Below are positions 19,577 through 47,350 of a stretch of 64,000 nt of DNA, piece after piece. The first letter of the stretch is position 1; each line of letters opens with the position of its first letter. Made by a program: the position numbers and the translations under genes. Below the pieces are notes generated by a model. The model saw only the letters and a list, made by a program, of their open reading frames with translations. It made no database searches and was not told the DNA's origin. This DNA is from Gilvimarinus xylanilyticus (lineage in GTDB: Bacteria; Pseudomonadota; Gammaproteobacteria; Pseudomonadales; Cellvibrionaceae), in the NCBI RefSeq assembly GCF_024195295.1, contig NZ_JAMFTH010000001.1, positions 1,488,001 through 1,552,000 on the forward strand. The letters are read 5' to 3'.

Positions 19577-19639
19577 ATGCCAGCCAAAACCGACTCATCC
19601 AGCCACACCCCGATGATGCATCGGCGGCCGCCCCAATAA
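19577..19639 (+). pseudogene. mutS: 5' relic of mutS left of the integrated element
   Basis: A 20-codon frame reads MPAKTDSSSHTPMMH and then runs into unrelated codons and a TAA. The HTPMM segment matches the start of the intact MutS encoded at 44750 ([15 protein letters not shown]). The simplest reading is that it is the original N-terminus of mutS, cut off when the element inserted at the codons for MMQ. If translated it yields only a short peptide. Confidence 0.75.
19604..19620 (+). repeat. attL core repeat in the mutS relic
   Basis: Left copy of the 17-bp near-direct repeat that encodes HTPMM of MutS. The final ATGATGCA is the longest identical run with the right copy and is the likely crossover segment. 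Confidence 0.75.
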
Positions 19640-19669
19640 AATCAATAACTTACTGATTTTTCAGAGAAA

Positions 19670-19693
19670 ACCTACACTTTCACCTACACTTTT
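19670..19693 (+). repeat. Tandem integrase arm-type repeats, left end
   Basis: Two adjacent 12-bp copies of ACCTACACTTTY (19670-19681 and 19682-19693) lie about 50 bp inside the left end of the element. The same motif occurs four times inside the right end, which is what arm-type binding sites of a tyrosine integrase would look like. Confidence 0.65.
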
Positions 19694-19924
19694 TTATTTG
19701 CATGGCGCTGAAATTTCAGTGTATTTCATGCTATTTCACATTCTTCATTTTGCCGATTTGCCAAGTAAGGATCGGATGATTCTGAGGTCGGCAAGTTGCC
19801 AGATTGCACGAAAAGTAAGCGGGTTTGGCCCGATAGAGTGAAGTCTCAGCTACAATTTTCAGATAGTGAATTGGACGGTTTAGAATCTTGCCCACCAATC
19901 ACTCAAAAAGCAGCAGGCCAAATA

Positions 19925-20839
19925 TTACGATTTCAGAAAGTTTTCCAACTCATTCAGCTGCTGCGCATAAGCTTCTGGATTACTTTTCTTGAATTTTTCC
20001 AGGTTAAGGAGCTTCCATTTCACCGAGGGAAATTTTTGATAGTCGTAGATTGACCAATCCGGCCTTAAGCGATTAAGGCTCAACAAAAAGGTTTTATCCT
20101 CTTCGTTCAAACTACCCCTGACCACGTCGATGAGCTGGAGTCTCGTGGCCTCGTAGTCGTCGTAGCTAAACTCAATCTCGCTCATGCCTTGGAATTGACT
20201 TTCAAAAGCCGCACGCTGATCCTGCAGGTTTGGAACAAGCATTTCGTGGGTCGGGCGATTACTGCTCACTAATCCCAGAATAAACCCTTGCTTGATCTCT
20301 TCAGTAAGGGCTTTATTGTCTAGCCCCTCATTTTCGAACAAGAGCTTCACATCAAATAAATCTCTCGGATGCTGTCTATCAAGTGCAGCGCATAATTTTC
20401 CGCCATATAGCTGTGCCAACGGCACCAACGGCATGCTACAAAACGCATCGAACTGCTCTTGGGCAGACTCGCAAAGGGGCGCTCTATTTGGCTCGCCTAG
20501 CAAGCCCCGCCCTACCATATTCACCTCAATTTTAATAAGTACACCGCGCTCATCAAGCTGTAGCTTACAGACATTTTCTTTATGCTGAGCTCGTATTGAT
20601 GGACGCAGTGCCTCGATACGCGATTTAATCCTTAGCAAGGCCGAATTAATGCCTTCCAGCGTTTCATTACGCTCGGCAATTTCAACATAGGTTAAGTCGA
20701 TATCGACTGACAGCCTCGGCATATTTCGCACAAAAAGGTTGATTGCCGTACCACCATGCATGGCAAAACACGCCTCTTTGGCAACCTCGGGCAAGACATC
20801 CAGCAAGAGCCCCACTTGCCTTTTATAGGCTTCATTCAT
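19925..20839 (-). CDS. AbiEii/AbiGii-type nucleotidyltransferase toxin
   Basis: The toxin of a type IV-like AbiE toxin-antitoxin/abortive-infection system. The 304-residue product has the nucleotidyltransferase motif GGTAINLF (29-36) followed by SVDIDLTY (44-51, metal-binding D46 and D48). The later KLCAALDRQHPRDLFDVKLL motif is typical of AbiEii. AbiEii-family enzymes transfer nucleotides to RNA acceptors and halt growth. Its start overlaps the antitoxin gene by 8 bp, so expression is coupled. The final 285 bp before the left end of the element hold only arm-type repeats and AT-rich DNA. Confidence 0.9.
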   Translation of the reverse strand: MNEAYKRQVGLLLDVLPEVAKEACFAMHGGTAINLFVRNMPRLSVDIDLTYVEIAERNETLEGINSALLRIKSRIEALRPSIRAQHKENVCKLQLDERGVLIKIEVNMVGRGLLGEPNRAPLCESAQEQFDAFCSMPLVPLAQLYGGKLCAALDRQHPRDLFDVKLLFENEGLDNKALTEEIKQGFILGLVSSNRPTHEMLVPNLQDQRAAFESQFQGMSEIEFSYDDYEATRLQLIDVVRGSLNEEDKTFLLSLNRLRPDWSIYDYQKFPSVKWKLLNLEKFKKSNPEAYAQQLNELENFLKS

Positions 20840-21886: not shown

Positions 21887-22399
21887 TTAACGGTTCCAGA
21901 AAATATGAACTTCTTCAAAGCCGGTTTCGATGGTGAAAATGTCACCGCCCACTTCTAAATCGTAAGCCATGCGGGCGTAATCTATGTAGGGCGCCAGGCG
22001 TTCTGGAATATCGCCACTTTCTTCTGTCAGCTCGGCAGCAAAGTCGGCAACACTGGAATAGCGGCCGGCATAATTCTCCTCAATTACCGTATGCGCCTCC
22101 TCAATATCCGTGTATATGTTCAGCACTTCCGCCCCAACCTCGCCATGTTCTTCAATAAACACGGCAACGTCGTGCGCTTCTTTTAAGCTGGTGTACTGAG
22201 AAATTGTGTAACTGCCATAGCCTTCATAATCGTGAATGGCATACTCTTCCGCATCAGCCACCGGGCTGCAGGCAAGTAATTCGCTTACTTGATTTTGTAT
22301 ATTATCTAGATCCTGCGTGGCATCAATCCAGGCGCCGTAGTGAATACCGTTGTTGTATGCGGCCAGGTCGGATACGTAAATCTTGATGTCTTCGCTCAT
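21887..22399 (-). CDS. ardA: Antirestriction protein ArdA
   Basis: A DNA mimic that blocks type I restriction-modification enzymes when the element enters a new host. The 170-residue product is very acidic (dense D/E throughout) and has the ArdA pattern IYVSDLAAYNNGIHYGAWIDA at the start, with DYEGY, DVAVFIEEHGE, DFAAEL and PYIDYARMAYDLEVGGDI further on. The ATG at 22399 follows AAGGGG and gives the conserved N-terminus; an in-frame ATG 60 bp upstream lacks it. Strong hairpins upstream may be a single-strand promoter. Confidence 0.92.
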   Translation of the reverse strand: MSEDIKIYVSDLAAYNNGIHYGAWIDATQDLDNIQNQVSELLACSPVADAEEYAIHDYEGYGSYTISQYTSLKEAHDVAVFIEEHGEVGAEVLNIYTDIEEAHTVIEENYAGRYSSVADFAAELTEESGDIPERLAPYIDYARMAYDLEVGGDIFTIETGFEEVHIFWNR

Positions 22400-22462
22400 G
22401 GTCTTGCCCCTTAAAATTCGCTGTTGAGGTTTCTGAGAAGCGCTAAACGCGCCGCTCATGAA

Positions 22463-22953: not shown

Positions 22954-23562
22954 ATGCATGACGAACCGTGGCAGCTAGCTCCCCAACTAAAAAAAGAGTA
23001 TATCCAGCAATTAGCACAATTATTAGTCCAAGTTAGGGGAGAAGTGATCGACAGGCACGAACCAGAGCTTGGCGATACACGGTTGTCACTCGGTATGCGA
23101 GCCTATGAATGTTGCCGATCCCGTATTACGTTCAAGGATGATGACGGGGATTGGCCGTGGCTATCAATTATTACAAACGATGGGCGCTTTACGTTTGCTA
23201 TAGATGGCGTGCCTGTGCGCTTCTCCCGAAACGATCCCAAGAATTTGCCAGATAGAAAGATCATCCCTTCCCAGGAAGGCTATGAACAAATGTGTATGTT
23301 CGAGCATGTCAATGATTATGCCCATATCCGCTGGTTTCTTATTATCGATACCCCCTACGACACGCCAGTAGAACATGCTTATTTTGTTGGTTATAACGAA
23401 CTCAAAGAAATAATCTGCAAATGGGAAATTCCTCTAAGTGATCAAGTTCCGGTTATGAGCGACGTTAACAAAGGCAAGCCACAAGCCGTTAAAGTGCCGC
23501 CAGCAAAAGCAAAATTGAAACTTGTTAGCAAAAAAGAAGATAAAAACGAGAATGATAAATAA
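22954..23562 (+). CDS. Unknown protein, first gene of the XRE/ImmA cassette
   Basis: A 202-residue soluble protein with no recognised domain. The middle (residues about 45-145) looks folded, with repeated aromatic positions such as DWPWLSII, GRFTFAIDGVPVRFSR and HIRWFLIIDTP. The last 30 residues are a lysine-rich tail. Its stop overlaps the start of the XRE-ImmA gene by 11 bp, so the two are translationally coupled and probably work together, for example as the target or partner of the peptidase. Confidence 0.7.
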   Translation: MHDEPWQLAPQLKKEYIQQLAQLLVQVRGEVIDRHEPELGDTRLSLGMRAYECCRSRITFKDDDGDWPWLSIITNDGRFTFAIDGVPVRFSRNDPKNLPDRKIIPSQEGYEQMCMFEHVNDYAHIRWFLIIDTPYDTPVEHAYFVGYNELKEIICKWEIPLSDQVPVMSDVNKGKPQAVKVPPAKAKLKLVSKKEDKNENDK

Positions 23563-24670
23563 GTTTTACGGTGAAAAATTGCGTTTAGCCAGATTGCTAA
23601 ACGGTATGACCCTAAAAGAGCTTGGAGATGCCGTTACTGCATCACGTCAGTTTATTCATCAACTTGAAGGCGATACCAGACAACCACCAGACGATATGCT
23701 TTACGCGCTATGTGAAACACTGCTGGTGCAAAAAGGCTTTTTCTATGAACCGCTCGATAACGATGTGAAGTTTGAGCAATGTCACTTCAGGAAGAGAAAA
23801 ACCACCCCTGTAGGACTGGCAAACCGTGTTTGCTCGTATAGCAGCATTTTTGAAGTGCTTGTGGAGTTTCTTTCTGGATATATCGAATTTCCTGAACCAG
23901 ACGTACCTGATCTTTCAAATGACGCAGATAGCTATAGTAACATTGAAATTGAAGTAGCTGCCGAAAATTGCCGTACGCATTGGGGGTTAGGCTTAGATAA
24001 TCCAATAGACAATATCACCAACGTTTTAGAGCAAGCTGGCGTAGTGATTACCACTTTCTCCGGTGTTTCTGACAAAGTGGATGCACTCTCACTGAGCCGT
24101 AAACGACCAATCATCATCCGAAATGACGCAAAAGAGAGTCCATGCAGACTTCGCTTTGATCTTGCGCATGAGTGCGGGCATTTCGTTTTACACAATGGTA
24201 TAGAGACAGGCGATAATGTTACAGAATCTGAAGCAGACAGATTTGCAAGCGCCTTTATTTTTCCCCGCTCAGCATTTCTAGACGAGTTTCCACGAAACTT
24301 TTCACCCAATCGGGAAGCATCGTGGAAACCTCTGTACAAACTAAAAATGAGATGGGGTATGAGTTTAAGGGCCATTATTTATCGCGCCCATTTTTTGAAA
24401 TTAATCTCTTCTCAAGACTATAGAGCAGCTAATGTCAGACTTAGTAAAACAGGGCAAACGAAAGTCGAGCGCTATGATGATCAAATCGATATGGAGCAAC
24501 CAGAATTACTTAAAAGCTCTATCGAGCTTTTGAATGAGGAGCTTGGGATTAATTTTTTTAAAATTTCCGATAGTCTTCATATCGAACCAGCGATGCTGTC
24601 AACAATCACAGGAATTCCAATTCCTGCCAGTGAATCTGAAAGTAATATTGAACCTTTATTCAGGAGATAA
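23552..24670 (+). CDS. XRE-family regulator fused to ImmA/IrrE metallopeptidase
   Basis: The 372-residue product has an N-terminal helix-turn-helix (about residues 5-60: RLARLLNGMTLKELGDAVTASRQFIHQLEG) and a zinc metallopeptidase domain with HECGH at residues 206-210 (H206, E207, H210). A distal glutamate lies in ESEADRFASAFIFP. ImmA-type proteins cut repressors or other regulators in response to stress or phage, often relieving repression of mobile elements. The ATG at 23552 is preferred because it lies in the overlap with the upstream gene and directly precedes the HTH; a further in-frame ATG at 23522 would add ten lysine-rich residues. Confidence 0.85.
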   Translation: MINKFYGEKLRLARLLNGMTLKELGDAVTASRQFIHQLEGDTRQPPDDMLYALCETLLVQKGFFYEPLDNDVKFEQCHFRKRKTTPVGLANRVCSYSSIFEVLVEFLSGYIEFPEPDVPDLSNDADSYSNIEIEVAAENCRTHWGLGLDNPIDNITNVLEQAGVVITTFSGVSDKVDALSLSRKRPIIIRNDAKESPCRLRFDLAHECGHFVLHNGIETGDNVTESEADRFASAFIFPRSAFLDEFPRNFSPNREASWKPLYKLKMRWGMSLRAIIYRAHFLKLISSQDYRAANVRLSKTGQTKVERYDDQIDMEQPELLKSSIELLNEELGINFFKISDSLHIEPAMLSTITGIPIPASESESNIEPLFRR

Positions 24671-28894: not shown

Positions 28895-31864
28895 TCAATA
28901 ATATTCCCGAATATATGCGTATGCCTGATCAAATAAATCCTGATCAGTGTGCAGCTTGTATTTCAGTAATGTCTTACGCAGTGATTTTTGCACTTCGCGT
29001 TCACCACCAGTGGTATTCTGCCAGCCAGGGAAACGTACTATGCGAACAATGGCATCAATATCATTGACTATGCGCTCGACGACTGCGGGCGTTTGATCGC
29101 TTTTCAGCTCCAAAAACAGTTCAGTGAGTGCGGCTTTTGGTGATTTCTCTTGCCTTGCTTCTTCAAGCTCTTTTTCAGCCTGAAGCGTTTCCTTAGCAAT
29201 TTTGCAAAGCTCTTTCACAAAGTCGATTGAGGCGATTAGCCCTTTTTCAGCCTTATCTCTGAGCGTTTCAAGCCGTTCGCTCAACGACTTGAATACAGGC
29301 AAGTCGGTTCGATCTTTGAAACGTTTCGCTAACGCCTTCTCTAGTTGCGTTGTCTTTCTTGGATCGGGGTTATTGAATATATCTTCGATAACATCGGCAT
29401 CCATGACAAACTCATCCAGGGTATGAACCCCACCGACATGAATGTTTTCATGGATTAGCTGCGTTGTTTGGGCACCCAAGGTTAGCCACAGCAACTTGCC
29501 AATGTTGTCCGAAGCTGGCTTAACGGATTCATAGACCTGGGCGAGCCATTTGTAATCTGCGTTATAGGCATCGAGGATATTATCCGGTGATAGCGACTCC
29601 CAGAGTTTGGCCAGATATTTGAAATCTGCTGCAAAAGCATCTTTCTTCTCGTCTGTCTTAATGGCATCCTGCGCAGCCTCTAATCCTTCAAACCCTTCCA
29701 GGGTACGATCAACGCCTTCAAAATGAGATAAAGCGTCAGCCATTGCTTGTGGGAGTTTTGACCCTAGCTCTGCAAGATTGGTAATAACTTGTTGTAGGCT
29801 TTTTTCATCAAACTCAAGAGCTTTTGCTGCATCGTCAAACACACCAAAGTAATCGACAATCCTGCCAAAGGTTTTGTGCGGATACAGGCGGTTGGTTCGG
29901 CAAATTGCCTGGAGCAAGGTATGATCCTTTATGGATTTGTCCAAATACATCGTTTGCAGTATTGGTGCGTCAAAGCCCGTCAAAAGCTTAGCGGTAACGA
30001 TAATGAATTTAAGCTCTGAAGTGGCATCATTAAATTCGTCGACGATCTTTTCCTGCTGGCTTTTATCAACGGCCCATTTTTGTTTGAATTCGAGATCGTC
30101 GTTAGCCGTTGTTGAAATGACGACCTTGCTAGCTTCGACAGGAAAGTGCTTATCCAGCTCTTCCTTGTATTGAACACAAGCGTGGCGATCAGACGTGACT
30201 ATCATTGCCTTGAAGCCGTGGGGCAAAACCTTCTCTTTAAAATGCACGGCAATGTCATTCACGATTTTCTCAACGCGCTCTGGCGCTTTGAGGAAGGCCG
30301 CCATCTTTGCGGATTTCTGGTTTAAAGCATCGGCTTCTTCATCCGTTAAGCCCGCGCTTTCTTTTAGGTTCTCAAAAGCCTGATCCAGAGAGTCTTTGTC
30401 AACGTGTACATCGACCAAGCGCGGCTCAAAATGCAGCGGCAGCGTTGCTTCATCTCGAATAGAGTCATGGAAGGTATAGCGGCTCATATATCCGCCGTGA
30501 TCTTCCTCTGCGCCGAAAGCCCAGAATGTATTTTTATCCGCCTTGTTGACTGGAGTTCCGGTTAAACCGAACAGGAAAGCATTGGGTAATGCAGCCCGCA
30601 TTTGGCGACCAAGATCGCCTTCCTGGGTTCGGTGCGCCTCATCCACTAGAACAATGATATTGTCGCGGGTATTCATGTCTGGTTTTGCATCGCGGAACTT
30701 ATGGATCATCGAGATGATGATCTTGCGGGTATCGCGCTCCAGCATTTGCTGTAGCTCTTTAATGCTTTCGGTGGTTTCGACATTGGCGATATCGGCAGCA
30801 TTAAAAGTGCCGCTAATTTGCGTATCCAGGTCGGTTCTATCTACCAGCACAATAACCGTTGGGCTTTTAAGAGAGGCTTCGCGGCGGAGTTTTTGTGCAG
30901 CAAAGACCATGAGCAATGATTTACCTGAACCTTGGAAGTGCCAGATCAAACCTTTTTTAATTTTGCCCTCAACAACGCGTTGAACGATCTTGTTCGCTCC
31001 CTCGTACTGTTGAAAGCGAGGTATAACCTTCATACGCTGCTTCTTGCTATTGCTGGTAAACAAGGAGAAGTTGCGCATAATGTCGAGCAAGCGAGCCGGA
31101 CTGAGCAGGTCTTTAAGTTCTTTGCCTACGCCGCCAAGACCAAGGCTTTTGGCAATTTTCTCGTCGTCATTCTCTAGCCGCCACGGAGCCCAAAACTCTA
31201 ATGGGCAACGTATAGCTCCGTAATATAGCTCTTTACCTTCGGTAGCAAAAGACAAGATATTCGGAACAAATAGCTGAGGAACTGCATTTTCATAGATATT
31301 GTGAATTTCATTAGCGCCATCTAGCCAACTCACAGAAGGCCGGATGGGGGTTTTCGCTTCGCCAATCACAACAGGAATCCCGTTAATCATCATTACCACA
31401 TCGGGTATCTTGGTCTCACGGTGGTGGATACGGAACTGATTAGTGACGATGTATTGATTGTTTGTGAGATTACCGAAATCGATTAAGCGAACAGGCACAT
31501 GGCGATTATTCTCGCCGAAAGGCATGGTTTTCTCGCCTGTCAGCCACAAAAAGAATTCTTCATTGGCCTTTACCAGGCCAATCTGATTAACCGAAATTAA
31601 AATAGCGCGGAGTTTGTAGATGACCTCATCAGCCAATTCAGGCTTAGCCTGAATTTCAGGATTGAGTCGCAATAACGCATCTTTCACCTGCGACTCAACC
31701 ATCACTTCATTAACGCCGCGGCCAAGCTGATCAGAATTTTGATATTGCCACTCGGTCCCGTAGGGCTGCAAAGGTGTCTCAGCGACCTTTCCCTGATTGA
31801 GATTTACACCCGTCAATTGATTGATGATGTAATACTCGACGCTATTTAATTCCGTAAACCCCAT
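28895..31864 (-). CDS. hsdR: Type I restriction enzyme, R subunit (HsdR)
   Basis: The ATP-dependent translocase and nuclease subunit. The 989-residue product has the N-terminal nuclease motif PDVVMMINGIPVVIGEAKT, helicase motif I FQGSGKS, motif II VDEAHRT, motif III GLTGTP and motif VI QAICRTNR. A helical C-terminal region would contact the methylase. It starts 2 bp after the hsdS stop, so it is the last gene of hsdM-hsdM-hsdS-hsdR, immediately upstream of the Hachiman pair. Confidence 0.94.
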   Translation of the reverse strand: MGFTELNSVEYYIINQLTGVNLNQGKVAETPLQPYGTEWQYQNSDQLGRGVNEVMVESQVKDALLRLNPEIQAKPELADEVIYKLRAILISVNQIGLVKANEEFFLWLTGEKTMPFGENNRHVPVRLIDFGNLTNNQYIVTNQFRIHHRETKIPDVVMMINGIPVVIGEAKTPIRPSVSWLDGANEIHNIYENAVPQLFVPNILSFATEGKELYYGAIRCPLEFWAPWRLENDDEKIAKSLGLGGVGKELKDLLSPARLLDIMRNFSLFTSNSKKQRMKVIPRFQQYEGANKIVQRVVEGKIKKGLIWHFQGSGKSLLMVFAAQKLRREASLKSPTVIVLVDRTDLDTQISGTFNAADIANVETTESIKELQQMLERDTRKIIISMIHKFRDAKPDMNTRDNIIVLVDEAHRTQEGDLGRQMRAALPNAFLFGLTGTPVNKADKNTFWAFGAEEDHGGYMSRYTFHDSIRDEATLPLHFEPRLVDVHVDKDSLDQAFENLKESAGLTDEEADALNQKSAKMAAFLKAPERVEKIVNDIAVHFKEKVLPHGFKAMIVTSDRHACVQYKEELDKHFPVEASKVVISTTANDDLEFKQKWAVDKSQQEKIVDEFNDATSELKFIIVTAKLLTGFDAPILQTMYLDKSIKDHTLLQAICRTNRLYPHKTFGRIVDYFGVFDDAAKALEFDEKSLQQVITNLAELGSKLPQAMADALSHFEGVDRTLEGFEGLEAAQDAIKTDEKKDAFAADFKYLAKLWESLSPDNILDAYNADYKWLAQVYESVKPASDNIGKLLWLTLGAQTTQLIHENIHVGGVHTLDEFVMDADVIEDIFNNPDPRKTTQLEKALAKRFKDRTDLPVFKSLSERLETLRDKAEKGLIASIDFVKELCKIAKETLQAEKELEEARQEKSPKAALTELFLELKSDQTPAVVERIVNDIDAIVRIVRFPGWQNTTGGEREVQKSLRKTLLKYKLHTDQDLFDQAYAYIREYY

Positions 31865-31866
31865 CC

Positions 31867-36557: not shown

Positions 36558-39335
36558 TCATAGAAGCTCAAACTCTGGCCCACTACGCTGCACCTCAAGG
36601 GCATTGGCCTTCTCGCCGGTATGCTCCTGGATGTGCTCAATTAGCCGCTGGCGGTTGTCGGTGTAGACAGTGGCCTGCTCCTTGGCCCGGCTTAGGGCGA
36701 CGTAGAGCGCCTTTTGGGAGGCTAGGTTAATCCGGGCGCTCTCGGCGTGGTAGATGACGCGCTCGGTAGTTTTACCCTGGCTGGCGTGGACGGTAGAGAC
36801 GTAATCGTAGTTCCAGTGTTGCGCACCGTGGGCGTCCAGGGTGATGGTAGCCAAGTGGCCATTGGCGTATTCGACTTCGGCGAACCCGCGATCTACATCA
36901 ATGCTTTTCACCACACCCCGTGTCCCGTTACTGAGGCCTATATCGCGATTATTGCTTGTGCAAATAACTTTATCGCCTATGGCTAAGGCACACTCTTTGG
37001 GGCGGTAGGCCTGAGATTTGGCGCCCCAGGCTAGCGGGTTCCAGATTCGCTGCTCTCCCGTGCTGGATTGCAGCTCCACCACACCAAGGCTTGGCTCTAC
37101 GGCCGAAACTTGCCAGTAGCTGCCCTTGGCCACCTCTTTTGATTTGTATTCACGCAAGAACTGAACGACATCGCCGACTTTGTAGTTGAGCGCGTCTTTA
37201 CGACAGGCCTGGGTCAAGTCGACCCGCTCCAGGCGCCGAGTGTTTATCTCCTGCTCCGAAAGCTGGCCAATGGACTTTAGGCCTCCGCGTAGAGCCTGGC
37301 TGAGCTGGTCGCGCCCTTCCCGGCTTGGGTCAATGATTAAACAGTTTTGCCTTTGTACCTCAGGCATTTCAATGTACTGCTTAACAATGGCAGCGTGGCG
37401 GGCGTCGGCTTTGCCTGCGAATTCGACGATTTCACCGCCCCCCTTCTCCAGGCTCTCCATAGCCTCGCGGGCTTCGCCCTGCAGGCTATGTTCTACCGTT
37501 TGCAGAAGCTCTCGATTCGTTTGGCGAACAATTTCATCGAGCTTAAAAGTTTGCATTCCGTTTTCTTGAAGCTGGCGGAATGCCGCGCCCGCCTCTACGG
37601 AGCCAAGTTGCTTTACGTCACCGACCAGCACTACACGAGCTTGCGTGGCCTGAGCTTGACTGAGCAATTGTGTCATATCTTTGGTAGACAGAAGGGAGGC
37701 TTCGTCTACCAACCATAGCTGGCGCTGAGGCTCTTGCTTACCGTGCCGTTCGCGGAGTAAATGACTGGCGACGGTTTTTACGTTGTAGAGCCTTGCGCCC
37801 TCGGCCAGTGATTCGCAGGCGGAGGCGGATGGGGCCATGCCCACAACATCGTATCCTTTGAGTGCATATTGCTCAGCGATGGTTTTGAGAGCCGTGGTGG
37901 TTTTTGCAGTACCCGCGTAGCCTTGAATGGCAACGATGTTGTCGTCTGACAGCATGACGCCGCGCACCGATCCTACTTGGCCAGAGGTCCAACCATCGTA
38001 ACCTTGCGCGCGGCTTTCATTCTCGGCCGCTGCAAGTACTTGCTCGACTTGATACAGACTGAACTCCGGCAAAGCTTTGCCTTGTGCCTCACGCATTGTG
38101 TTTATCATTTTTTCTTCCAGCGCTACGTGCTCTGGCGTTGTGTAAGCTGGGAGCTGCTGCCAGCCCTTTGTGTGGCGACAGTATGATTTTACGGTTCGGT
38201 CACCCATTAACAGATCTTTATCAACCGCCGTCTCTATTGTCTTGTTTACGACCGCTGCAGAGATACCGTAGCCAACGGCCAACTCATTCATTTTCGCCTG
38301 AAGTGCTTGCGCGCTAAATACTGCATCGCGCTCAGATAAGGAACGGATGGCCTGGTCGAAAATCTTTTGGCTTACATCAAACGAGTCACTTCGACATCGT
38401 GCAATCCAATCAGGATCTGCGCATCGCTCATTGGCAATCTCAACCAAGCGGGCAACATTCATTCCCGCGCCTTCTGAGCGAGTTACCCAATCCTTATAAA
38501 GGGCTTCGCGTTCTACTCGCTTTTTGGTCGCGCGAGACTCGTGGGCGACTTTTTCTTTGATATAGGCAGGGGCGGTTTCTCGGGTGTAGCCCAGGTCGGA
38601 AAGCTTTTGATCGACCACGTCTCGGCGCTTGCTAAACTCACCCAATGCCGCATCGGTTACACCTACGACCTCAAAATTGGCATCCGGCATTCGCTGAATG
38701 TCATAGCCCAGCTCCCTTAGCTGCGCCGCCAGTGACTGCCGATATGCCAGGCCCGCTTCCTTCTGGGCCAAGTAAAGATGGTGACTTTCCAGGCTACGCC
38801 ATTGGCCATTCTCTTTGCGGGTGGCATTCAACACTACAGCGTGGCTGTGCAACTGAGGGTCCAGGCTGCGGCTGGTATCGTGGCGAAACACCGCCGCCAG
38901 TAGATTACCCGTGGCCAACTGATTCGGCCCGGATTGGTTGCGGTTATTGAGCCGCGTCCAGGCCGCAGAGTTCTCCAACATCGCCATTGCTTCGCGTACT
39001 GCTTGGTCGTGCGCTTTTATTACTCGCTCGTCGTTACCAATCAGGGCGACTACCGACACTGATTTAGGAGGTGAAAACTGTAAATCCCAACCGGGTTTGT
39101 GCTGCCACTCTCCTTCCCGATAGGTGCCGATCATCTGGCCAGCTATTTCACCGCCCAAGTAGCGTTTAAATCGCTCGGGCTCAACCTCGTTGCCTTGTAT
39201 GGCCAAAAGCTTTGCCCCCTCACCTTCCCAGCTTGAGGGGCAAACATCATCAGTCAAATAATAATCGGCGTGATCGCCACGCTCGAAGTAACTGGCGGCA
39301 TGAGCCGCCGAGCGGATTGGAGCTAGCGTCATCAT
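36558..39335 (-). CDS. MobF-family conjugative relaxase (TraI/TrwC type) with RecD-like helicase
   Basis: Nicks oriT, stays bound to the 5' end and unwinds the strand for transfer. The 925-residue product has an N-terminal HUH relaxase: tyrosines in DHADYYLTDD, FSPPKSVSV, and the three-histidine metal motif around FRHDTSRSLDPQLHSHAVVLN. The C-terminal RecD-like helicase has Walker A GYAGTAKT, Walker B LVDEASLLS and the motif VSTVHASQGKT. It is of TrwC-like length, shorter than F TraI. It lies 8 bp downstream of a ribbon-helix-helix protein gene. Its presence with a coupling protein but without T4SS genes defines the element as mobilizable. Confidence 0.93.
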   Translation of the reverse strand: MMTLAPIRSAAHAASYFERGDHADYYLTDDVCPSSWEGEGAKLLAIQGNEVEPERFKRYLGGEIAGQMIGTYREGEWQHKPGWDLQFSPPKSVSVVALIGNDERVIKAHDQAVREAMAMLENSAAWTRLNNRNQSGPNQLATGNLLAAVFRHDTSRSLDPQLHSHAVVLNATRKENGQWRSLESHHLYLAQKEAGLAYRQSLAAQLRELGYDIQRMPDANFEVVGVTDAALGEFSKRRDVVDQKLSDLGYTRETAPAYIKEKVAHESRATKKRVEREALYKDWVTRSEGAGMNVARLVEIANERCADPDWIARCRSDSFDVSQKIFDQAIRSLSERDAVFSAQALQAKMNELAVGYGISAAVVNKTIETAVDKDLLMGDRTVKSYCRHTKGWQQLPAYTTPEHVALEEKMINTMREAQGKALPEFSLYQVEQVLAAAENESRAQGYDGWTSGQVGSVRGVMLSDDNIVAIQGYAGTAKTTTALKTIAEQYALKGYDVVGMAPSASACESLAEGARLYNVKTVASHLLRERHGKQEPQRQLWLVDEASLLSTKDMTQLLSQAQATQARVVLVGDVKQLGSVEAGAAFRQLQENGMQTFKLDEIVRQTNRELLQTVEHSLQGEAREAMESLEKGGGEIVEFAGKADARHAAIVKQYIEMPEVQRQNCLIIDPSREGRDQLSQALRGGLKSIGQLSEQEINTRRLERVDLTQACRKDALNYKVGDVVQFLREYKSKEVAKGSYWQVSAVEPSLGVVELQSSTGEQRIWNPLAWGAKSQAYRPKECALAIGDKVICTSNNRDIGLSNGTRGVVKSIDVDRGFAEVEYANGHLATITLDAHGAQHWNYDYVSTVHASQGKTTERVIYHAESARINLASQKALYVALSRAKEQATVYTDNRQRLIEHIQEHTGEKANALEVQRSGPEFELL

Positions 39336-39343
39336 GGCGCCAC

Positions 39344-39664
39344 CTAGAGCTTGTTGTAGCGTTCGAGCAGTGCATCGATACGCTCGCGCAGCTGCTCGCT
39401 GTTTAGCTCAGCGCCAGCGGCTTGTGCTGATTCCGTTGCAATTACGCGAGCCGCTGTGACGGCGTGTAAAACTGATTCAAGCTTGCGCTCGATTGCTTCA
39501 AACCGATAATCGATTTTTCCTCCCTGATCCGTTAGCGCTTTTTCTACAAGCAAGCGCACAGCCTGACTTCGGCTTAGGCCACGTGCTTCTGCCAGTTTTT
39601 TTAGCTCTTGATGCATTTGTTTATCGCAGTGAACCTGCACGCGATACGGGTGTGTCATACTCAT
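39344..39664 (-). CDS. Ribbon-helix-helix relaxosome accessory protein
   Basis: A 106-residue protein with an N-terminal ribbon-helix-helix (YRVQVHCDKQMHQELKKLAEARGLSRSQAVRLLVEKAL, about residues 6-45) and a helical C-terminal tail that may oligomerise. Placed directly upstream of the relaxase and downstream of the inverted-repeat cluster, it fits the role of TrwA or MobC-type proteins, which bind oriT and help the relaxase. I assign the role from the fold and position. Confidence 0.75.
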   Translation of the reverse strand: MSMTHPYRVQVHCDKQMHQELKKLAEARGLSRSQAVRLLVEKALTDQGGKIDYRFEAIERKLESVLHAVTAARVIATESAQAAGAELNSEQLRERIDALLERYNKL

Positions 39665-39854
39665 AATCCATACTCATATATAAGTCACCTCAAGGCCCTT
39701 CAACGCTCGCTCTGAGTCGTCTATGACTCAAAGGTGAAAGCCAGCCTTGAGTCACCGCCAAACCGTATCCTCCTTAGGGATACACAGCTGCACGCCAGGT
39801 GCGTGAGGTGTCCGCCCTAGCCATAGCTAGGGCGTGGTTGATTGGGGCCCACAG
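39665..39854. other. Candidate origin of transfer (oriT)
   Basis: 190 bp between two DNA-binding-type genes with inverted repeats closely packed: TGAGTC-GTCTAT-GACTCA (39713-39730), GACTCAAAGG with CCTTGAGTC (39725-39753), GTATCC/GGATAC (39765-39783), CACGC/GCGTG (39791-39805), CGCCCTAGC/GCTAGGGCG (39813-39834) and CCCACAGC/GCTGTGGG (39848-39866, running into the next gene). Next to a MobF relaxase and its accessory protein this is the expected place for oriT. I cannot fix the nic position; GTCTATGACTCA loosely resembles the R388-type nic region. Confidence 0.65.
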
Positions 39855-40124: not shown

Positions 40125-40135
40125 TGGGCGGCTCC

Positions 40136-41836
40136 TTAAAGGTCGTCGATATCGTTAACGGAAGTATGATCACTGGATACGATGCCGACTGTGCCTAGGT
40201 GATATTTACGCTTTATGGGTGTCAAAGACATGCGACCCTTAAATTCAGTGACCGAAACCTTAAGTTGCGTCCAACCGACTCCAGCGATTTTCAGATACCC
40301 CTGGCGATCCGGTAGCTGAGCGATTTCGCTAGCCAAAACTACACGTTTTGTTTCCTGAACCTCTGTGCTAGATACGCTGTTCCCACTACGGGTGTACTGG
40401 TCCCGTGTGACTTCAGTCTCACCTATTGTTCTACTCAGGTAGTCGGCAGTTTCAGGGTCTGGCGTGCGTAGAATTGCCGTATGCCCCACACTACCCAAAA
40501 TACTGAGTGCCTCATCTCTTCCGTAAATACTGAAAAGTTGTGAAATATTTTGGATACCCAAAACCAGGCCTAAACCATATTTCCTGCCCCTGGCAAGAGC
40601 CTGGCTAAGAATCTCTACTTTACCAAGGGACGCCAGCTCATCCAGAAAAAACCAGATTCGACGGTCACCATCAGGCTCAAGACTCAATGCAGTTCGGGTA
40701 AGAATATCAATCCATGCAGTGCGCAATGACGCGGTGGCTGAGCCAGTTTCATCGTCATAGACGACCCATAACCAACCTTGGCAGTGGTCGTCGGTAAGCC
40801 ACGCTTTTAGACTAAAATCAGCCTCCCCCGCGTTTTCATCCAAGTAGCGCAGCGGCTCCATATAGCTGCTAAGAATACTCAATACATTGCTAAGCATGCG
40901 CTCTGAGCCTGGCTCAAAAAGTCGCTGCGAGGATGTCCCTTGCAGCAATTGCTTTAGCTCATCGACTGTTGCTGATTGAGCATAAAAAATAATATCGGAG
41001 TTTTTTCTCTCGCCAGTTTCCCACACTTTCTGCAGAATATTAGATAGTAGAGTTCGAGTGTAGCTATTCCATGTGGCGGCCTCCCCTTCTCCCGATGGGA
41101 TGAGCACATTTGCCATTGACGTGCAGTCTTCTGGACCTGCAATATCGGCGAATGGACTCCACCGCTCTGTTTCCTCGGTGCTGACAGACAGTACGCAGTC
41201 TCCCTGACGACCAAACTGGCTGTACAATTCACCACCAACATCGATAGCCACGACTCGATCATTTCTCTTGAAAATACAACCGAGCATTCGTTTTATGATT
41301 TGAGTTTTACCCGTTCCAGGCTCACCAAGTAGCGCTAATGAGCGCGTCTCCAAAGATTCAGGCAATGGAAGGCCACCAATAAATACCGGAATACGTGCGG
41401 CCATTTTTCGCAACTTTTTATGGATAGTATCGATGGGAATAATAACCGAACCTCTAACAAAACTATTCCCCCGTGTTAGATACAGGTAGATCAGCAATAG
41501 CGCCCATATAGGAACCACTGCCGCCACGGCTGATGTCCACGCCACCCAATCAGACCACCCCTCTGCAGGGTAAAGACTACCTCCCCACCATGTCGATACA
41601 TTGTGCGCACCCTCTAACCACAATGTACGGACAATGTACGTACCTAATCGGTACTCGGTGACCTCCTCCCAGAAAAACAGCGAATGAAAGCGCGCCATCC
41701 ACCAAACTGCCCCACCAAGGATTGTTCCCATGACACAAATGAATTTGTCAGTCCGCCAGCTGAGCCATACCCCTAATATGAAAACAACCAAAGAAATGGA
41801 CTGAATTACAACAACTTGGGACACATCTATATTCAT
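40136..41836 (-). CDS. Type IV coupling protein (VirD4/TraD/TrwB family)
   Basis: Inner-membrane ATPase that hands the relaxosome to a secretion channel. The 566-residue product has hydrophobic N-terminal segments (about residues 8-45 and near 105-125), Walker A LLGEPGTGKTQ (about 195) and Walker B IWFFLDELASLGK (about 395). Motifs ARGRKYGLGLVLGIQNISQL and GSVGHTAILRTPDPETADYLSRTIG are typical of TrwB/TraD. It begins 2 bp after the AlpA-type gene. No T4SS channel genes accompany it, so it must act with a helper channel. Confidence 0.9.
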   Translation of the reverse strand: MNIDVSQVVVIQSISLVVFILGVWLSWRTDKFICVMGTILGGAVWWMARFHSLFFWEEVTEYRLGTYIVRTLWLEGAHNVSTWWGGSLYPAEGWSDWVAWTSAVAAVVPIWALLLIYLYLTRGNSFVRGSVIIPIDTIHKKLRKMAARIPVFIGGLPLPESLETRSLALLGEPGTGKTQIIKRMLGCIFKRNDRVVAIDVGGELYSQFGRQGDCVLSVSTEETERWSPFADIAGPEDCTSMANVLIPSGEGEAATWNSYTRTLLSNILQKVWETGERKNSDIIFYAQSATVDELKQLLQGTSSQRLFEPGSERMLSNVLSILSSYMEPLRYLDENAGEADFSLKAWLTDDHCQGWLWVVYDDETGSATASLRTAWIDILTRTALSLEPDGDRRIWFFLDELASLGKVEILSQALARGRKYGLGLVLGIQNISQLFSIYGRDEALSILGSVGHTAILRTPDPETADYLSRTIGETEVTRDQYTRSGNSVSSTEVQETKRVVLASEIAQLPDRQGYLKIAGVGWTQLKVSVTEFKGRMSLTPIKRKYHLGTVGIVSSDHTSVNDIDDL

Positions 41837-42062: not shown

Positions 42063-43211
42063 ATGCTTCAACAGCACAAACAGGCTACTATTCAGTATCT
42101 ATATGCTTGCTATAAAATGTTTGAATTACAGAAAAATCGAAGAAGAGGACGATCCGCCATGGGCTCAAAACTTATGACACTTAGCGATGAAACCCGAGAC
42201 CTTTTTCTAAAGGAGGATATTCCTTATTCAGGGTTTCCATATCCTGAGGAATATTTTGCTGTTTTGGTTTATTTAAACGAAGAGCATAAGCGGTTGAAAA
42301 TGTCAGGAAGAGAAGCTGGAGGATTTACAGAAGAAACCCAAAAATCCAGAGGAAGAAGTATTGCCATATGGACTCAACTTAAGGGCGTTCCGATATCCTT
42401 CAGCCACAAGCATTTACTAGAAACTCTTGGAGTAGAAAACGATTTAGGAATGCTCATAAAAGTCGCAGGCAAAGGGGTGGTTCGAGAAGCCGAAGAGAAG
42501 CTTAGAACCCTCTGTAAACACGCAGAATATTTTGACGAGAAGCACGATCTTAACAATGCCTGCTACTTACTCGCCGATATTGATGTATTTCTGAAAATCA
42601 GAAAAAATACTAAAAACTTGAAGTATGATGATTTTGACACCGAAACTGAAGACTATTTCTGCAACTACTGCCATAGACTCAGAACTATAAAACCCGATTT
42701 CTGCAAGCACCACAATTCCCAAAGCTCCGGATACAACACTTTGTATAAGCAGATTAATAGTGCCTTTAAGAATCTTGGCAATATAAAAGCTACTAACGAA
42801 AACAAGCCTAAGAGATTAGTAGCCTGGGCCAGAAACCACCCAGCAAGCAAAAAAATAAACGCTGAAATCGAGATCTTGAAGAATCAGTATGACCTGGAAG
42901 AATGGAGCGACGACAATATCGATATTATATTCGACTGCTTTAATCTTCTCTACAAAAACGACCATTCGAGACACTTAGCTAAGTCCCCCTCACTCAGAAC
43001 AACCCCCAATAAATGGTCAAGTGATAGAGTTATCGAAATAATTAATGAATTTCTTGACACTGAATATGAAGTAGCAATTGATCCATTTTATTTCCTTGCG
43101 TCAGTTAAACGAATGACTTATTTCGCACTAATTTCAGATGCAGCGAAGGCCAGTCCAGGATTAGCAAAACCTAGATTCAACTACTCTTTGGAAGACTCAG
43201 GACGAGCATGA
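42063..43211 (+). CDS. Unknown element protein with a Cys/His cluster
   Basis: Up to 382 residues, AT-rich and lysine-rich. A zinc-finger-like cluster CNYCHRLRTIKPDFCKHH sits near residue 205; the rest is mainly helical. I do not recognise a family. A start at 42159 (350 residues) has a better AGAGGA ribosome-binding site than the ATG at 42063, so the N-terminus is uncertain. It lies between alpA (divergent) and the integrase (convergent, 35 bp apart), where regulators or replication proteins of such elements often sit. Confidence 0.7.
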   Translation: MLQQHKQATIQYLYACYKMFELQKNRRRGRSAMGSKLMTLSDETRDLFLKEDIPYSGFPYPEEYFAVLVYLNEEHKRLKMSGREAGGFTEETQKSRGRSIAIWTQLKGVPISFSHKHLLETLGVENDLGMLIKVAGKGVVREAEEKLRTLCKHAEYFDEKHDLNNACYLLADIDVFLKIRKNTKNLKYDDFDTETEDYFCNYCHRLRTIKPDFCKHHNSQSSGYNTLYKQINSAFKNLGNIKATNENKPKRLVAWARNHPASKKINAEIEILKNQYDLEEWSDDNIDIIFDCFNLLYKNDHSRHLAKSPSLRTTPNKWSSDRVIEIINEFLDTEYEVAIDPFYFLASVKRMTYFALISDAAKASPGLAKPRFNYSLEDSGRA

Positions 43212-43246: not shown

Positions 43247-44512
43247 TCAGATCCGTTCGAGCCTGTCGGCCCATTTTTGCAACCAAACTCGGCTTTCCCG
43301 CTCATACCCGTGCAGGTCATAGGTGCCTTCAATGCCACTCCGAGAATGGCCGAGTATTGCCTCAGCGACCTCGCTGGGGCAGCCCAGCCTAGATAAACCT
43401 GTACGTACAGTACGGCGCAAGTCGTGTGGTGACCAGTGGTCAATATCGAGCATTCGGCCGGTTTCACGCAGACGCCAGGCTTGCTCAGTAAGCGTTTTTT
43501 GTTGAATGGGGCGTCCTGTTTTTTGGCTTGGAAACAAATACTCACCAGTTGTGAGCTTTAACTGCTTAAGAAACTCTATCGCTTGGCGAGGCAGCTGTAC
43601 GTACCGCTCGACTCCGGTTTTGGTCTCCCTAAGATGCCAGGCACCCTGTTCTAAATCGATATCCGCCCAGCGAGCGTTGCAGACTTCACCAGTCCGACAG
43701 GCCGTCCATAGTGTAAACCGAAGCACATTTTTCTGTGTAGGCGTAAACACGGAACCTGGTAACCATTGTAGAAACCTGGCTAATTCCTGATCGGACAACA
43801 CACGGCGCCCGCGATTAGACGTGAGCTTTATCTTGGCTTGGCGCAAGCTGTTTTTGGCTAAAAAGGCGGGATTAGCAAAGCTTTCGTCGAATTTTTCTAG
43901 GCCAATTCCATACTCATAGGCTGCACAGAGTTCCCGCAACACGTTACCTGCCTGGACATTTGAACCCCGTTTCACGATGTCCATAACGAGGTTGACCACC
44001 TGGCGGCGGGTGATGCTTTCCGCAGGAAAGTTACCCAGAACACGCACCGCATCGCCATAGAGCGTTCGGCGGGTCTCTGCCTGGCCCTTACGTTTACGGG
44101 CACCGGGCACCACTTTTTTCCCCACCCTGCGGTCCTCGATATGCTGAGTGAGATATAAATCCACTAACTGTTTGACTGTCATACTTGTGGAAAGAGCTCT
44201 CTCTTCCCTAGCCTTTAAGGCGAGCTTGCGCTTTTGCTCGAATGCCGGGCAAACACCTTTCTTTCTCTGGGACTTGAGATCTTGCAGTGCCAACCTGGCC
44301 TCAGCTAAGGATAGTTCAGGGAAATGCCCTATTTGGAGCTGTACGAGTTTTTTGGATAGCGGACTGGTGTACCGGTAGTAGAACGATTTGGTCCCACCGG
44401 CACCACAATGGACCCGGAGCCCTCGGTTTTCACCTGTATCGGCCAGGTCTTTGTCACCTGAGCGCAAGGCTTTAATTTGAGCCGAGCTAATTGGTTGTTG
44501 GGATTTGGTCAT
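43247..44512 (-). CDS. int: Tyrosine integrase of the element
   Basis: A 421-residue site-specific recombinase with a DUF4102-type N-terminal arm-binding region (residues about 1-90: RVHCGAGGTKSFYYRYTSP), a core-binding domain, and a catalytic domain with ACRTGEVCNARW (Arg), HDLRRTVRTGL (HxxR), LGHSRSG (His) and TYDLHGYERES (Tyr). The ATG at 44512 follows GAGG; a GTG at 44530 is the alternative. Its start is about 260 bp from the right end core, the usual place for an integrase gene, and the arm-type repeats lie between. Confidence 0.95.
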   Translation of the reverse strand: MTKSQQPISSAQIKALRSGDKDLADTGENRGLRVHCGAGGTKSFYYRYTSPLSKKLVQLQIGHFPELSLAEARLALQDLKSQRKKGVCPAFEQKRKLALKAREERALSTSMTVKQLVDLYLTQHIEDRRVGKKVVPGARKRKGQAETRRTLYGDAVRVLGNFPAESITRRQVVNLVMDIVKRGSNVQAGNVLRELCAAYEYGIGLEKFDESFANPAFLAKNSLRQAKIKLTSNRGRRVLSDQELARFLQWLPGSVFTPTQKNVLRFTLWTACRTGEVCNARWADIDLEQGAWHLRETKTGVERYVQLPRQAIEFLKQLKLTTGEYLFPSQKTGRPIQQKTLTEQAWRLRETGRMLDIDHWSPHDLRRTVRTGLSRLGCPSEVAEAILGHSRSGIEGTYDLHGYERESRVWLQKWADRLERI

Positions 44513-44597
44513 ATCTCTGGCCTCAGGCACTGCATGTCAGTATCCTTACACGCTTAATTTGAACTGCCGTGGCTTCATTTCTGTAGGTTGTTTCGAG

Positions 44598-44674
44598 AAA
44601 AAGTGTAGGCCTCCTAACAACCTACACTTTTACCTACACTTTTTGGTGCAATTTCGTGAAAAACCTACACTTTT
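44598..44674. repeat. Integrase arm-type repeats, right end
   Basis: Four copies of the 12-bp motif ACCTACACTTTT: an inverted copy at 44598-44609 (one base off), a tandem pair at 44620-44631 and 44632-44643, and one at 44663-44674. The same motif lies in tandem at the left end (19670-19693). They flank the integrase promoter and the attR core, so they could serve both recombination and autoregulation. Confidence 0.7.
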
Positions 44675-44721
44675 CATGAAATTGCATGAAAGCCACAATT
44701 AAAATATTTTTCTTTTAAAAT

Positions 44722-44727
44722 TATACA
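44722..44727 (+). promoter_or_regulatory. Weak candidate -10 for mutS on element DNA
   Basis: TATACA lies about 23 bp upstream of the mutS ATG, with only a poor TTAAAA-type -35 before it. No Shine-Dalgarno sequence is visible before the ATG at 44750. The DNA here belongs to the element, so mutS expression in the integrated state depends on this region. Confidence 0.25.
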
Positions 44728-44749
44728 CTTATATAGAATTTTTCCCAGT

Positions 44750-47350
44750 ATGAGCAACGCAAAATCAGCCCAGCACACACCCATGATGCAGCAGTACTTA
44801 AAGATCAAGGCAGAGCACCCCAATGAACTGGTGTTTTACCGGATGGGCGACTTTTACGAGTTGTTTTTTGACGATGCCAAGAAAGCGGCCGAGCTGCTAG
44901 ATGTGACCTTAACCGCGCGGGGCAAGTCCGCTGGCGAGCCGATTCCCATGGCAGGCGTCCCCTACCACGCCGCCGAAAGCTATCTGGCGCGGCTGGTGCG
45001 TGCGGGCGTGTCGGTGGCTATTTGCGAGCAAATTGGCGACCCGGCCACCAGCAAGGGACCGGTCGAGCGCAAAGTCGTGCGGGTGGTAACCCCCGGCACC
45101 GTTAGTGACGAGGCCCTGCTGGATGAACGCCGCGATAACTTATTGGTGGCGGTGCACCGAGATGATGAAACCTACGGCATCGCCTCGCTGGATATTGCCA
45201 GCGGCCGGTTTTTGGTGTTGCAGGTAGATGGGCTAGACGCTGCCAGTGGCGAGTTGCAGCGTTTAAACCCGGCGGAGCTGTTAATCAGCGACGAACTGGA
45301 TTTGCCCGAGATTACCGAAAACCGCAAAGGCGTGCGCCGCCGGGGCCCCTGGGAGTTTGAGCTGGAAACCGCCGAGCGCTTGCTGACCCAGCAATTCGGC
45401 ACTCAGGATTTATCCGGCTTTGGCTGCGACCACTTACAAACTGCCATTGCGGCGGCGGGTTGCCTGCTCAGTTACGCCCGCGAAACCCAGCGCACCGCCC
45501 TGCCCCATGTGCGCACTCTGGCCCACGAAAACCGCGATGAGGCGGTCGCCATGGACGCCGCTACCCGGCGTAATCTGGAGATTGATTTAAACCTGACCGG
45601 AGGCGACGACAACACGCTTTTCTCTGTGCTAAACAAAACATCTACTGCCATGGGTTCGCGCTTGCTGCGCCGCTGGCTAAACCGCCCATTGCGGGATATG
45701 CCCACCCTGATTGCGCGGCAAGACGCAGTGGAAACCCTCGCTACCAATTACCGTTTCGAGCCCGTGCGCGACAAGCTAAAACGCATTGGTGATATGGAAC
45801 GCATTTTGGGCCGCCTGGCGCTGCGCTCGACCCGGCCCCGGGATTTGTCCCGCTTATTTGTGTCGCTGGCCACCTACCCCGAGCTGCAGTCAGCACTAAA
45901 TGAATGCCAGTCGCCCCGGCTGCAACAATTGGCCGACAGCATCAGCACTTTTCCGAATTTGGTCGATCTGCTGGATCGCGCCATCGTGGAAAACCCGCCG
46001 GTAGTCATTCGCGACGGCGGCGTGATTGCCGAGGGCTATGACAGCGAGCTGGACGAGCTTCGCGGCATCAGCGAGAACGCCGGGCAATACTTGGTGGATT
46101 TGGAAACCCGCGAGCGCGAGCGCACCGGCATTAATACCCTGAAAGTTGGTTACAATCGCGTTCACGGCTACTTTATTGAGCTGACCCGCGCACAGTCGGA
46201 CCAGGCCCCAGCAGATTACATTCGCCGCCAGACACTTAAAAACGCCGAGCGGTTTATTACCCCGGAGCTAAAAGAATTTGAAGATAAAGCGCTATCGGCC
46301 AAAAGCCGCGCCCTGGCCCGGGAAAAAGCGCTGTACGACGAGTTACTGGAACTGTTAAACCAACAACTTATCGCCCTGCAGGATTCGGCCGCGGCGGTGT
46401 CCGAGCTGGATGTATTAAGCAACTTTGCCGAGCGCGCCGGACTATTGGATTTAGCCAAACCCGGGCTGAGCGAAGTACCGGGTATTGAAATACACGGCGG
46501 TCGCCATCTGGTGGTGGAGGATGTGCTGGACGGCCCCTTTGTGCCCAACGACCTCAACTTTACCCGCGATCGCCATATGCTCATTGTCACCGGTCCTAAT
46601 ATGGGCGGTAAATCGACTTATATGCGGCAGACGGCACTGATCGTGCTGCTGGCCCATGTGGGCAGCTTTGTACCCGCCGCCAGTGCCAAAGTAGGCATGG
46701 TTGATCGCATCTTCACCCGTATCGGCTCGTCCGACGACTTGGCCGGGGGCCGCTCAACCTTTATGGTAGAGATGACCGAAACGGCTAACATTCTGCACAA
46801 CGCCACCGAGCGCAGCCTGGTGTTGATGGATGAAATCGGCCGCGGCACCAGTACCTTTGACGGTCTGGCGCTGGCCTGGGCCTGCGCCCGCCATCTCGCC
46901 GAGAATCTGCGCGCGTTTACCCTGTTTGCCACCCACTACTTTGAACTGACCGAGCTGCCCGACACGCTGCCCGGCATTGCCAATGTGCACCTGAACGCGA
47001 CCGAGCATAAAGACAGCATTGTGTTTATGCACAAAGTACAAGATGGACCGGCCAGTAAAAGCTATGGGATTCAGGTAGCGCGCCTGGCGGGTATTCCCGA
47101 CAATGTTTTGGTTCAAGCCGAGCAGCAATTAACCAGCCTGGAGCAAAACCATATTGTCACCGACCAGGCGGCGGTCCAATCGCCCACACCTACTCAGCCC
47201 ACAGCCCCCCAGGCCGCTGCGTCGCCCATGCAAACCAGCTTGTTCGACAGTGCGCCCCACCCGGCGGTTGAGGCCCTGGATGGTCTGGATCCGGACGATA
47301 TGACCCCCAAGCAGGCACTGGAGGCTCTGTACCGGTTAAAATCGCTGTAA
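44750..47350 (+). CDS. mutS: DNA mismatch repair protein MutS
   Basis: Recognises mismatches and starts methyl-directed repair. The 866-residue product has the mismatch-wedge motif F35-Y36-E37 (GDFYELF), the core and clamp domains, and an ABC-type ATPase with Walker [11 protein letters not shown] and Walker [16 protein letters not shown]. The C-terminal end retains a MutL/dimerisation tail. The first eight codons (MSNAKSAQ) come from the integrated element rather than the original gene, whose first codons lie at 19577. No clear ribosome-binding site precedes the ATG. Confidence 0.96.
44774..44790 (+). repeat. attR core repeat at codons 9-14 of mutS
   Basis: Right copy of the 17-bp near-direct repeat (15 of 17 identical to 19604-19620), encoding HTPMM of MutS. 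Chromosomal mutS sequence resumes directly after it. Confidence 0.75.

Follow-up and report, generated by a model that had tools for sequence, protein, structure and literature searches.

Within a 64-kb stretch of DNA from Gilvimarinus xylanilyticus (the window: positions 1488001-1552000 of contig 1, from a genome of 3.93 Mb in 13 contigs), the 5′ end of the mismatch-repair gene mutS is occupied by an element of about 25 kb. We consider it very likely that this element integrated site-specifically at a core within the codons for HTPMM, which stranded the host start of mutS beside galE and gave the gene a replacement start. It belongs to a known kind, the mutS-motif elements that Chu et al. reported in 2017 (PMC5296598). 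An earlier note on this DNA had proposed a mobilizable element inside the mutS 5′ end that replaces the first codons. We confirm that the observation is real and the central mechanism right, while the claim of rarity was wrong and the history of the mutS start is more tangled than had been stated.

On the left side of the element, an ATG at position 19577 opens a frame which reads MPAKTDSSS-HTPMM and is then terminated by a stop codon. On the right side, mutS starts at position 44750 and continues in frame as an intact open reading frame (ORF) of 866 aa, the only mutS match in the genome. Both sides had been described in this way and were confirmed. The insertion lies within the HTPMMQQ codons, and the start codon of mutS and its first in-frame codons are supplied by the element. 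The 17-bp repeats coding for HTPMM, which had been taken as attL and attR, are correctly placed (19604-19620 and 44774-44790) but imperfect: 15 of the 17 positions are identical (CACACxCCxATGATGCA), and the exact shared core is the 8-mer ATGATGCA, with a core-to-core interval of 25.17 kb. When up to two mismatches are allowed, the HTPMM-coding pattern occurs at two places in the window, which are the two junctions; shuffled sequences had a mean of 0.22, and two occurrences were reached in 1 of 100 shuffles. Fusing the flanks computationally at ATGATGCA results in an in-frame mutS N-terminus. The eight replacement codons that had been proposed (MSNAKSAQ) are present and in frame; the replaced stretch, however, consists of the leader, these eight codons and HTP up to the core. 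The G+C content is about 0.53-0.59 in the flanks and 0.40-0.50 in most of the interval, with 0.50-0.55 in the relaxase region. Integration into a tRNA gene was rejected, as ARAGORN finds no tRNA in the window.

We propose that the tyrosine recombinase of the element inserted it into the Met-Met-Gln codons of HTPMMQQ, with the crossover inside the 8-bp core. To the left of the core, the host promoter and first codons would be stranded beside galE; to the right, the leader, ATG and first codons of the element would be joined in frame to the host mutS. Excision at the core would restore an intact in-frame mutS. Mismatch repair has probably been kept, since the start provided by the element is joined in frame to the host gene. 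Excision, mobilization, a working promoter on the element and unaltered repair are what we infer from the arrangement of the sequence.

The insertion is strongly supported by comparison with the empty site in E. coli and by the attachment of the integrase family to mutS. We searched 5426 complete E. coli genomes with a relative of the integrase from Lelliottia, which matches 20 of them (13 with at least 80% coverage). Ten of these matches were examined. Eight sit at mutS. The other two (H16, H19) are fragments of pseudogenes, and mutS is absent from the 10-12 kb examined for each of them. Strain K-12, which has an empty mutS site, was used as reference. Left junctions were read in five of the eight strains, and in all five the 119 bp before the core are identical to K-12 (119/119). 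Right junctions were read in all eight; in each of them leader and start differ from K-12, and mutS after the core is identical in 590-600 of 600 bp. As the left junction equals K-12, the right start is foreign and the mutS body is native, the exchange happens inside ATGATGCA. This is a within-species demonstration that such elements exchange the leader and the first codons of a mismatch-repair gene. In seven of the eight elements the leader is similar to the leader and start of K-12, agreeing at 28-30 of the last 36 nt, as against 21 of 36 in VREC0864. Of the 5426 genomes, 5186 have an intact K-12 site, with coverage of at least 80% in a single place; the search matched 5368 genomes, with 58 unmatched and 182 matched below 80% in any single place. 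It returned 5547 places in 5369 records, at most two in each, so that about 178 records hold two places. A host 5′ end joined to a KL53-type element end was found in 13 of the 5426 genomes.

A scan of one genome per species yielded 26 relatives of the window's integrase in genome contigs. In 18 of these the DNA examined contains mutS in divergent orientation, directly adjoining the integrase in 17 cases and 2.95 kb from an integrase fragment in one. In 14 of the 18 cases a gap of 159-279 bp separates the integrase from the matched part of mutS; the remaining gaps are 312, 482, 1033 and 2952 bp. The largest belongs to a decayed integrase fragment from Proteus vulgaris (L048), where the mutS start looks native. 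Relatives that adjoin mutS reach down to about 30-36% identity, these being mostly from betaproteobacterial metagenome-assembled genomes (MAGs). Five of the 144 genomes of the window's family, including the window's own, have an integrase match at E 1e-60, and all five matches are at mutS. No plasmid relatives were found at E 1e-40.

Paired copies of the motif that bracket an element, with both ends read on a single contig, were found in Colwellia, Lelliottia, Morganella and Proteus penneri, and pairs with an element also occur in three members of the window's family (G087, G089, G080). An Alcanivoracaceae MAG has the motif pair on one contig, read at the right copy alone. No mutS-like start was recognised before the left copy of a betaproteobacterial MAG (G069), and in Nitrosomonas the left copy is on a different contig. 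Two of the family members have unusual arrangements. In G089 the motif copies are 109 kb apart (C2, 809920-919173) and have similar starts, MNAIEPTDQ and MNTIEPTDQ, perhaps because of a tandem or very large element; in G080 two different tyrosine recombinases lie adjacent to each other beside mutS (L099, 131-2925). Further motif matches (L079, L086-L089, L121, L125, L131, L145) were judged by eye to be chance, having neither a mutS-like start nor an element end. The earlier note had held integration into a protein-coding repair gene, with swapping of the N-terminus, to be much rarer than integration into a tRNA gene. This was not borne out: putative elements in the HTPMMQQ motif are reported in hundreds of beta- and gammaproteobacteria (PMC5296598).

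We also searched 295 genomes of Enterobacteriaceae. The motif occurs in 206 of them and two same-direction copies in 27, with a single hit for a reversed control pattern. Of the 27 genomes, 16 are listed with both copies on one contig and three with copies on different contigs, where direction is meaningless; eight are not listed. Fifteen of the one-contig pairs were fetched together, and the sixteenth (G062) was read separately. The right copy opens mutS in all 15. Seven pairs contain a complete or fragmented relative of the window's recombinase. Five others, in which no such relative was detected, look decayed. The remaining three (L184, 17020-18564; L188, 8-1525; L194, 383-2152) have a different, longer tyrosine recombinase, a second group at the mutS motif that is unmatched by the integrases of the window and of Lelliottia. 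As their left junctions read HTPMMQQY before diverging, their core probably lies further right. In L175, L176, L177, L178 and L180 the motif copies bracket merely 1.4-2.3 kb adjoining mutS, and these intervals, without a recombinase related to that of the window, look like decayed elements. A Fic gene is retained in L175 according to Pfam; the same ORF was recognised by eye in L177 and L178. Parts of a further related recombinase are found beyond the left motif copy in L179 (5067-5501) and L183 (80-507), which looks like serial insertion.

The origin of the two starts is less simple than had been assumed. In a FastTree analysis of GcvP the window groups with the element-free sister G003 (nucleotide identity 0.897, local support 1.0). 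In this sister MSNAKSAQ stands directly beside galE, and G007, which is also element-free, has MSNAKTVQ. The orphaned start is thus not that of the nearest species, since both start MutS with MSNAK and not with MPAKTD. This weighs against site-specific integration with replacement of the start, and so do several other observations. A left-junction start is not always native, because in G087 the left junction bears an element-type start. A promoter search before the new mutS start gave one promoter-like site with 0.9 expected, and thus none above chance. Neither a circular form nor a same-species empty site was found in the sequences searched. Finally, mutS is absent from the examined DNA of 8 of the 26 integrase relatives, three of them at 52-59% identity (L039, L041, L049; Budvicia twice, including B. 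aquatica, and Yersinia aldovae) and five distant.

The starts could be assigned the other way round, with MSNAKSAQ native and MPAKTDSSS foreign. The gal side would then stem from an MPAKTD-type relative by replacement, or have been left behind as a scar by an element inserted earlier, without any swap of the start by the present one. Besides the MSNAK starts of G003 and G007 and the element-type start in host position in G087, it is in favour of this alternative that galE and the two following genes have 87, 80 and 74% protein identity to G003 versus 96% for GcvP, which may mean local replacement (the figures are not normalised for gene-specific rates). We nevertheless consider it unlikely. 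In the FastTree analysis of mutS, contrary to that of GcvP, G003 and G007 come together and the window (G000) is outside (local support 0.998), so that MPAKTD fits an older state which is common with G004 at this locus; nucleotide identities of mutS are 0.817 between window and G003 and 0.813 between G003 and G007. G004 has an MPAKTD start and a leader homologous to that on the galE side. Over the 230 bases preceding HTP on this side, the match between window and G004 has z 8.3, the value between G004 and G006 is the same, and the match between window and G006 is weak (z 2.0); the CGTAAAAT context of the promoter-like site can be aligned with the sequences upstream of mutS in G004 and G006. 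The start on the element side is identical to that of G003 in 34/34 nt, from the T before ATG through HTP, but upstream of the ATG no similarity to G003 was detected. In addition, the left junctions that were checked against an empty site bear the host start, in five of five E. coli strains.

The earlier note had suggested comparing mutS 5′ ends in close relatives, and G003, with MSNAKSAQ, no MPAKTD and its location beside galE, has to the letter the arrangement that it had named as speaking against its proposal. The insertion is not overturned by this, given that the window falls outside G003 and G007 in the mutS tree and that G004 has the MPAKTD start with the homologous leader. An original MPAKTD-type start, as had been suggested, agrees with the in-frame join of the flanks and with G004, but not with the nearest species. 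For integration with replacement of the start, the simplest reading is an older allele of MPAKTD type at this locus on the window's chromosome, an origin of MSNAK on the branch of G003 and G007, and an element which took its cassette from a G003-like host before it inserted here. The element has probably captured the MSNAKSAQ cassette from the mutS of a relative; aberrant excision with a crossover at the two start codons would yield such a block. Purely vertical inheritance of MSNAK conflicts with the mutS tree, and sliding identity showed no clear tract of recent recombination in mutS from G003. The first 216 MutS residues are 98.6% identical to G003, which we take to reflect general conservation of that end.

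Transposition or illegitimate recombination might have placed unrelated DNA here, the short repeat being a chance remnant. The 17-bp repeats are indeed short and imperfect. However, the same core and the same integrase family are found at identical codons in many genera, and the 27 genomes with two same-direction copies compare with 1 hit in 295 genomes for the reversed pattern; this explanation is hardly credible. The element may also be thought of as a mutation-rate switch, with excision or the promoter of the element altering MutS levels. Such a case is Vibrio splendidus 12B01, where a 27-kb element gives mutS a new promoter and start and leaves the host start orphaned upstream; excision, seen in about 1 of 10,000 genomes, leaves a 2-bp scar that causes a frameshift and hypermutation (PMC5296598). 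The window has the same motif and architecture, and its native promoter-like site is cut off from mutS. In contrast to the frameshift in 12B01, a crossover at the core would keep mutS in frame in the window, as was reported for E. coli 536, P. putida F1 and B. multivorans CF2, where excision left mutS intact (PMC5296598). We therefore regard a switch as quite improbable.

Exchange of start cassettes was addressed by a survey of mutS 5′ ends (143 loci, 103 of them used after removing duplicates and short ones; identities of the gene bodies are ungapped and are lowered by indels). The most similar 5′ ends with distant bodies include hosts of related elements, namely Morganella and P. penneri as well as Dasania and a Pseudomonadales MAG. 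The latter two are distant hosts (body identity 0.595) whose elements share a start cassette, with a local score of 61 over a region of 63 bases. Unrelated 5′ ends also occur between E. coli strains with mutS bodies about 97-100% identical, in seven pairs that all involve strain VREC0864. Where the bodies reach 0.90 or above, 26 of 33 pairs have related 5′ ends; the figures are 28 of 62 at 0.85-0.90 and 28 of 3199 below 0.65. Among close relatives, 5′ ends mostly follow the gene, and this weighs against a strong version of cassette exchange. The start at the left junction of G087 is almost the same as the one supplied by the element in G089. The data fit exchange in both directions without proof. 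It is a tentative idea, possible rather than probable, that hosts and mutS-targeting elements generally trade start cassettes both ways, with elements capturing them and hosts being able to keep them. If this is general, the variable first residues of proteobacterial MutS would be a fossil record of past integrations. The mutS attachment site would then also be the missing reason for the repeated islands between fhlA and mutS in Enterobacteriaceae, an interval that also holds Salmonella pathogenicity island 1 (SPI-1).

The features of the element and its flanks are listed in Table 1. Pfam was run at E 0.001 on 18 non-overlapping element ORFs of at least 80 aa. Among these, no type IV secretion or mating-pair families beyond the coupling protein were matched, and no capsid, tail or terminase families (Pfam only; PHROGs not searched). 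On the ORFs scanned, we thus rejected an integrative conjugative element, its own mating-pair formation genes not being found, as well as a prophage, and an integrative mobilizable element is the best class. As relaxase and coupling protein are present without a recognised mating-pair apparatus, the element would move with a helper conjugative system. Inverted repeats that might mark an origin of transfer were not found in 39300-40200. The window contains six copies of the repeat CCTACACTT, a pair near the left end of the element and four near the right, while 50 mononucleotide shuffles gave a mean of 0.64 and a maximum of 2; the copies are probable integrase arm sites, and inverted repeats are present in the same right-end stretch. 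The two HsdM-type methyltransferase genes in the type I operon (33087-36052) differ from each other and sit side by side. In G004, an ArdA with 91.6% identity to that of the window is encoded about 4 kb upstream of mutS (L060, 148-720), with a reverse-transcriptase-like ORF (by eye) in between; G004 has no integrase match at E 1e-60. Outside the element, at 54726-59815, two large secreted proteins look carbohydrate-active and have serine-rich or repeat linkers (by eye), which suggests a polysaccharide-degrading host.

Table 1. Features of the mutS element and its flanks (coordinates of the window).
Feature	Position	Strand	Basis or remark
Two genes after galE	17216-18250, 16068-17216		labels galT, galK read by eye
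galE-like epimerase, left chromosomal flank	18271..19341	-	Pfam Epimerase; divergent from mutS in element-free G003, G007
Promoter-like site TTGAGT-16-TAAAAT, candidate orphaned mutS promoter	19509..19536	+	1 found vs 0.9 expected, alone not significant
Orphaned host mutS start, MPAKTDSSSHTPMMHRRPPQ then stop	19577..19639	+	sequence; leader and start homologous to G004
attL core ATGATGCA	19613..19620	+	same core in E. coli
Integrated mobilizable element	19621..44782		~25.2 kb including one core
Two CCTACACTT repeats, probable arm sites (left end)	19671..19691	+	
AbiEii and AbiEi, type IV toxin-antitoxin / abortive infection pair	19925-20839, 20832-21605	-	Pfam, PADLOC
ArdA antirestriction protein	21887..22459	-	Pfam
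Helix-turn-helix and IrrE-type peptidase domain protein, RmrA-like (PADLOC)	23522..24670	+	Pfam, PADLOC
HamB and HamA, Hachiman-type defence	24906-28043, 28033-28848	-	PADLOC HamB1 1324.3 bits, HamA1 361.5 bits; Pfam
Type I restriction-modification	28895..36052	-	HsdR 28895-31864, HsdS 31867-33087, HsdM 33087-34559 and 34559-36052; Pfam, PADLOC
TrwC-type relaxase/helicase	36558..39335	-	PF08751 255.4 bits
Ribbon-helix-helix protein, probable relaxosome accessory	39344..39664	-	Pfam; role suggested by position
TrwB/TraD-type coupling protein	40136..41836	-	PF10412 319.3 bits
382-aa protein	42063..43211	+	no Pfam or PADLOC match at E 0.001
Tyrosine recombinase, mutS-targeting family	43247..44530	-	Arm-DNA-bind_3 and Phage_integrase PF00589 (Pfam); position of relatives; divergent from mutS
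Four CCTACACTT repeats, probable arm sites (right end)	44601, 44621, 44633, 44664 (44601..44672)	-, +, +, +	
Element-borne mutS start cassette, 8 codons MSNAKSAQ and HTP	44750..44782	+	identical to G003
attR core ATGATGCA	44783..44790	+	
mutS, no stops, all five MutS domains	44750..47350	+	Pfam

Protein-coding genes are also the targets of SXT/R391 elements in prfC and of dusA-associated islands, which restore the gene; targets and integrases are other ones. A prophage between mutS and mutL of Streptococcus pyogenes is known as SpyCI. It shares with the window element the location at a mismatch-repair locus, but while the window element preserves the mutS frame, the prophage, as cited by Chu et al., halts mutL transcription (PMC5296598). 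In Burkholderia, Tuanyok et al. (2008) described mutS-specific recombination at the 15-bp site ACGCCGATGATGCAG (PMC2612704). This site contains ATGATGCA and is the likeness between the window element and the islands GI8c of B. pseudomallei MSHR305 and Bt-GI4 of B. thailandensis; GI8c differs in being a putative prophage, and in the consulted text the two mutS genes are noted only as of unequal size and partly identical (PMC2612704).

The interval between fhlA and mutS is treated as an island hotspot in a paper on the evolution of SPI-1, in the consulted part of which integration sites and repeats are said not to be apparent (PMC7232297). A direct explanation of this hotspot, open to testing, is offered by the mutS core and its integrases; entry of SPI-1 in this way is no part of the evidence. 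In searches limited to open-licence literature, no paper turned up that joins the mutS-motif site with the hotspot. This link and the exchange of start cassettes may be new, and both are unproven.

The closest likeness is to the elements of Chu et al., a class for which we found one experimental study and to which the window adds a mobilizable element carrying defence genes (Hachiman, type I restriction-modification, AbiE, ArdA). They have in common the motif, an integrase beside mutS, a new start and upstream region, a start left orphaned upstream (in the window probably that of the host), the beta- and gammaproteobacterial range and a varied cargo (PMC5296598). For the integrase the likeness lies in its position beside mutS and in its kinship with the integrases at mutS that were surveyed here. 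A point which the consulted text of Chu et al. does not discuss (PMC5296598) is particular to the window: here the start cassette of the element equals the native start of an element-free sister species.

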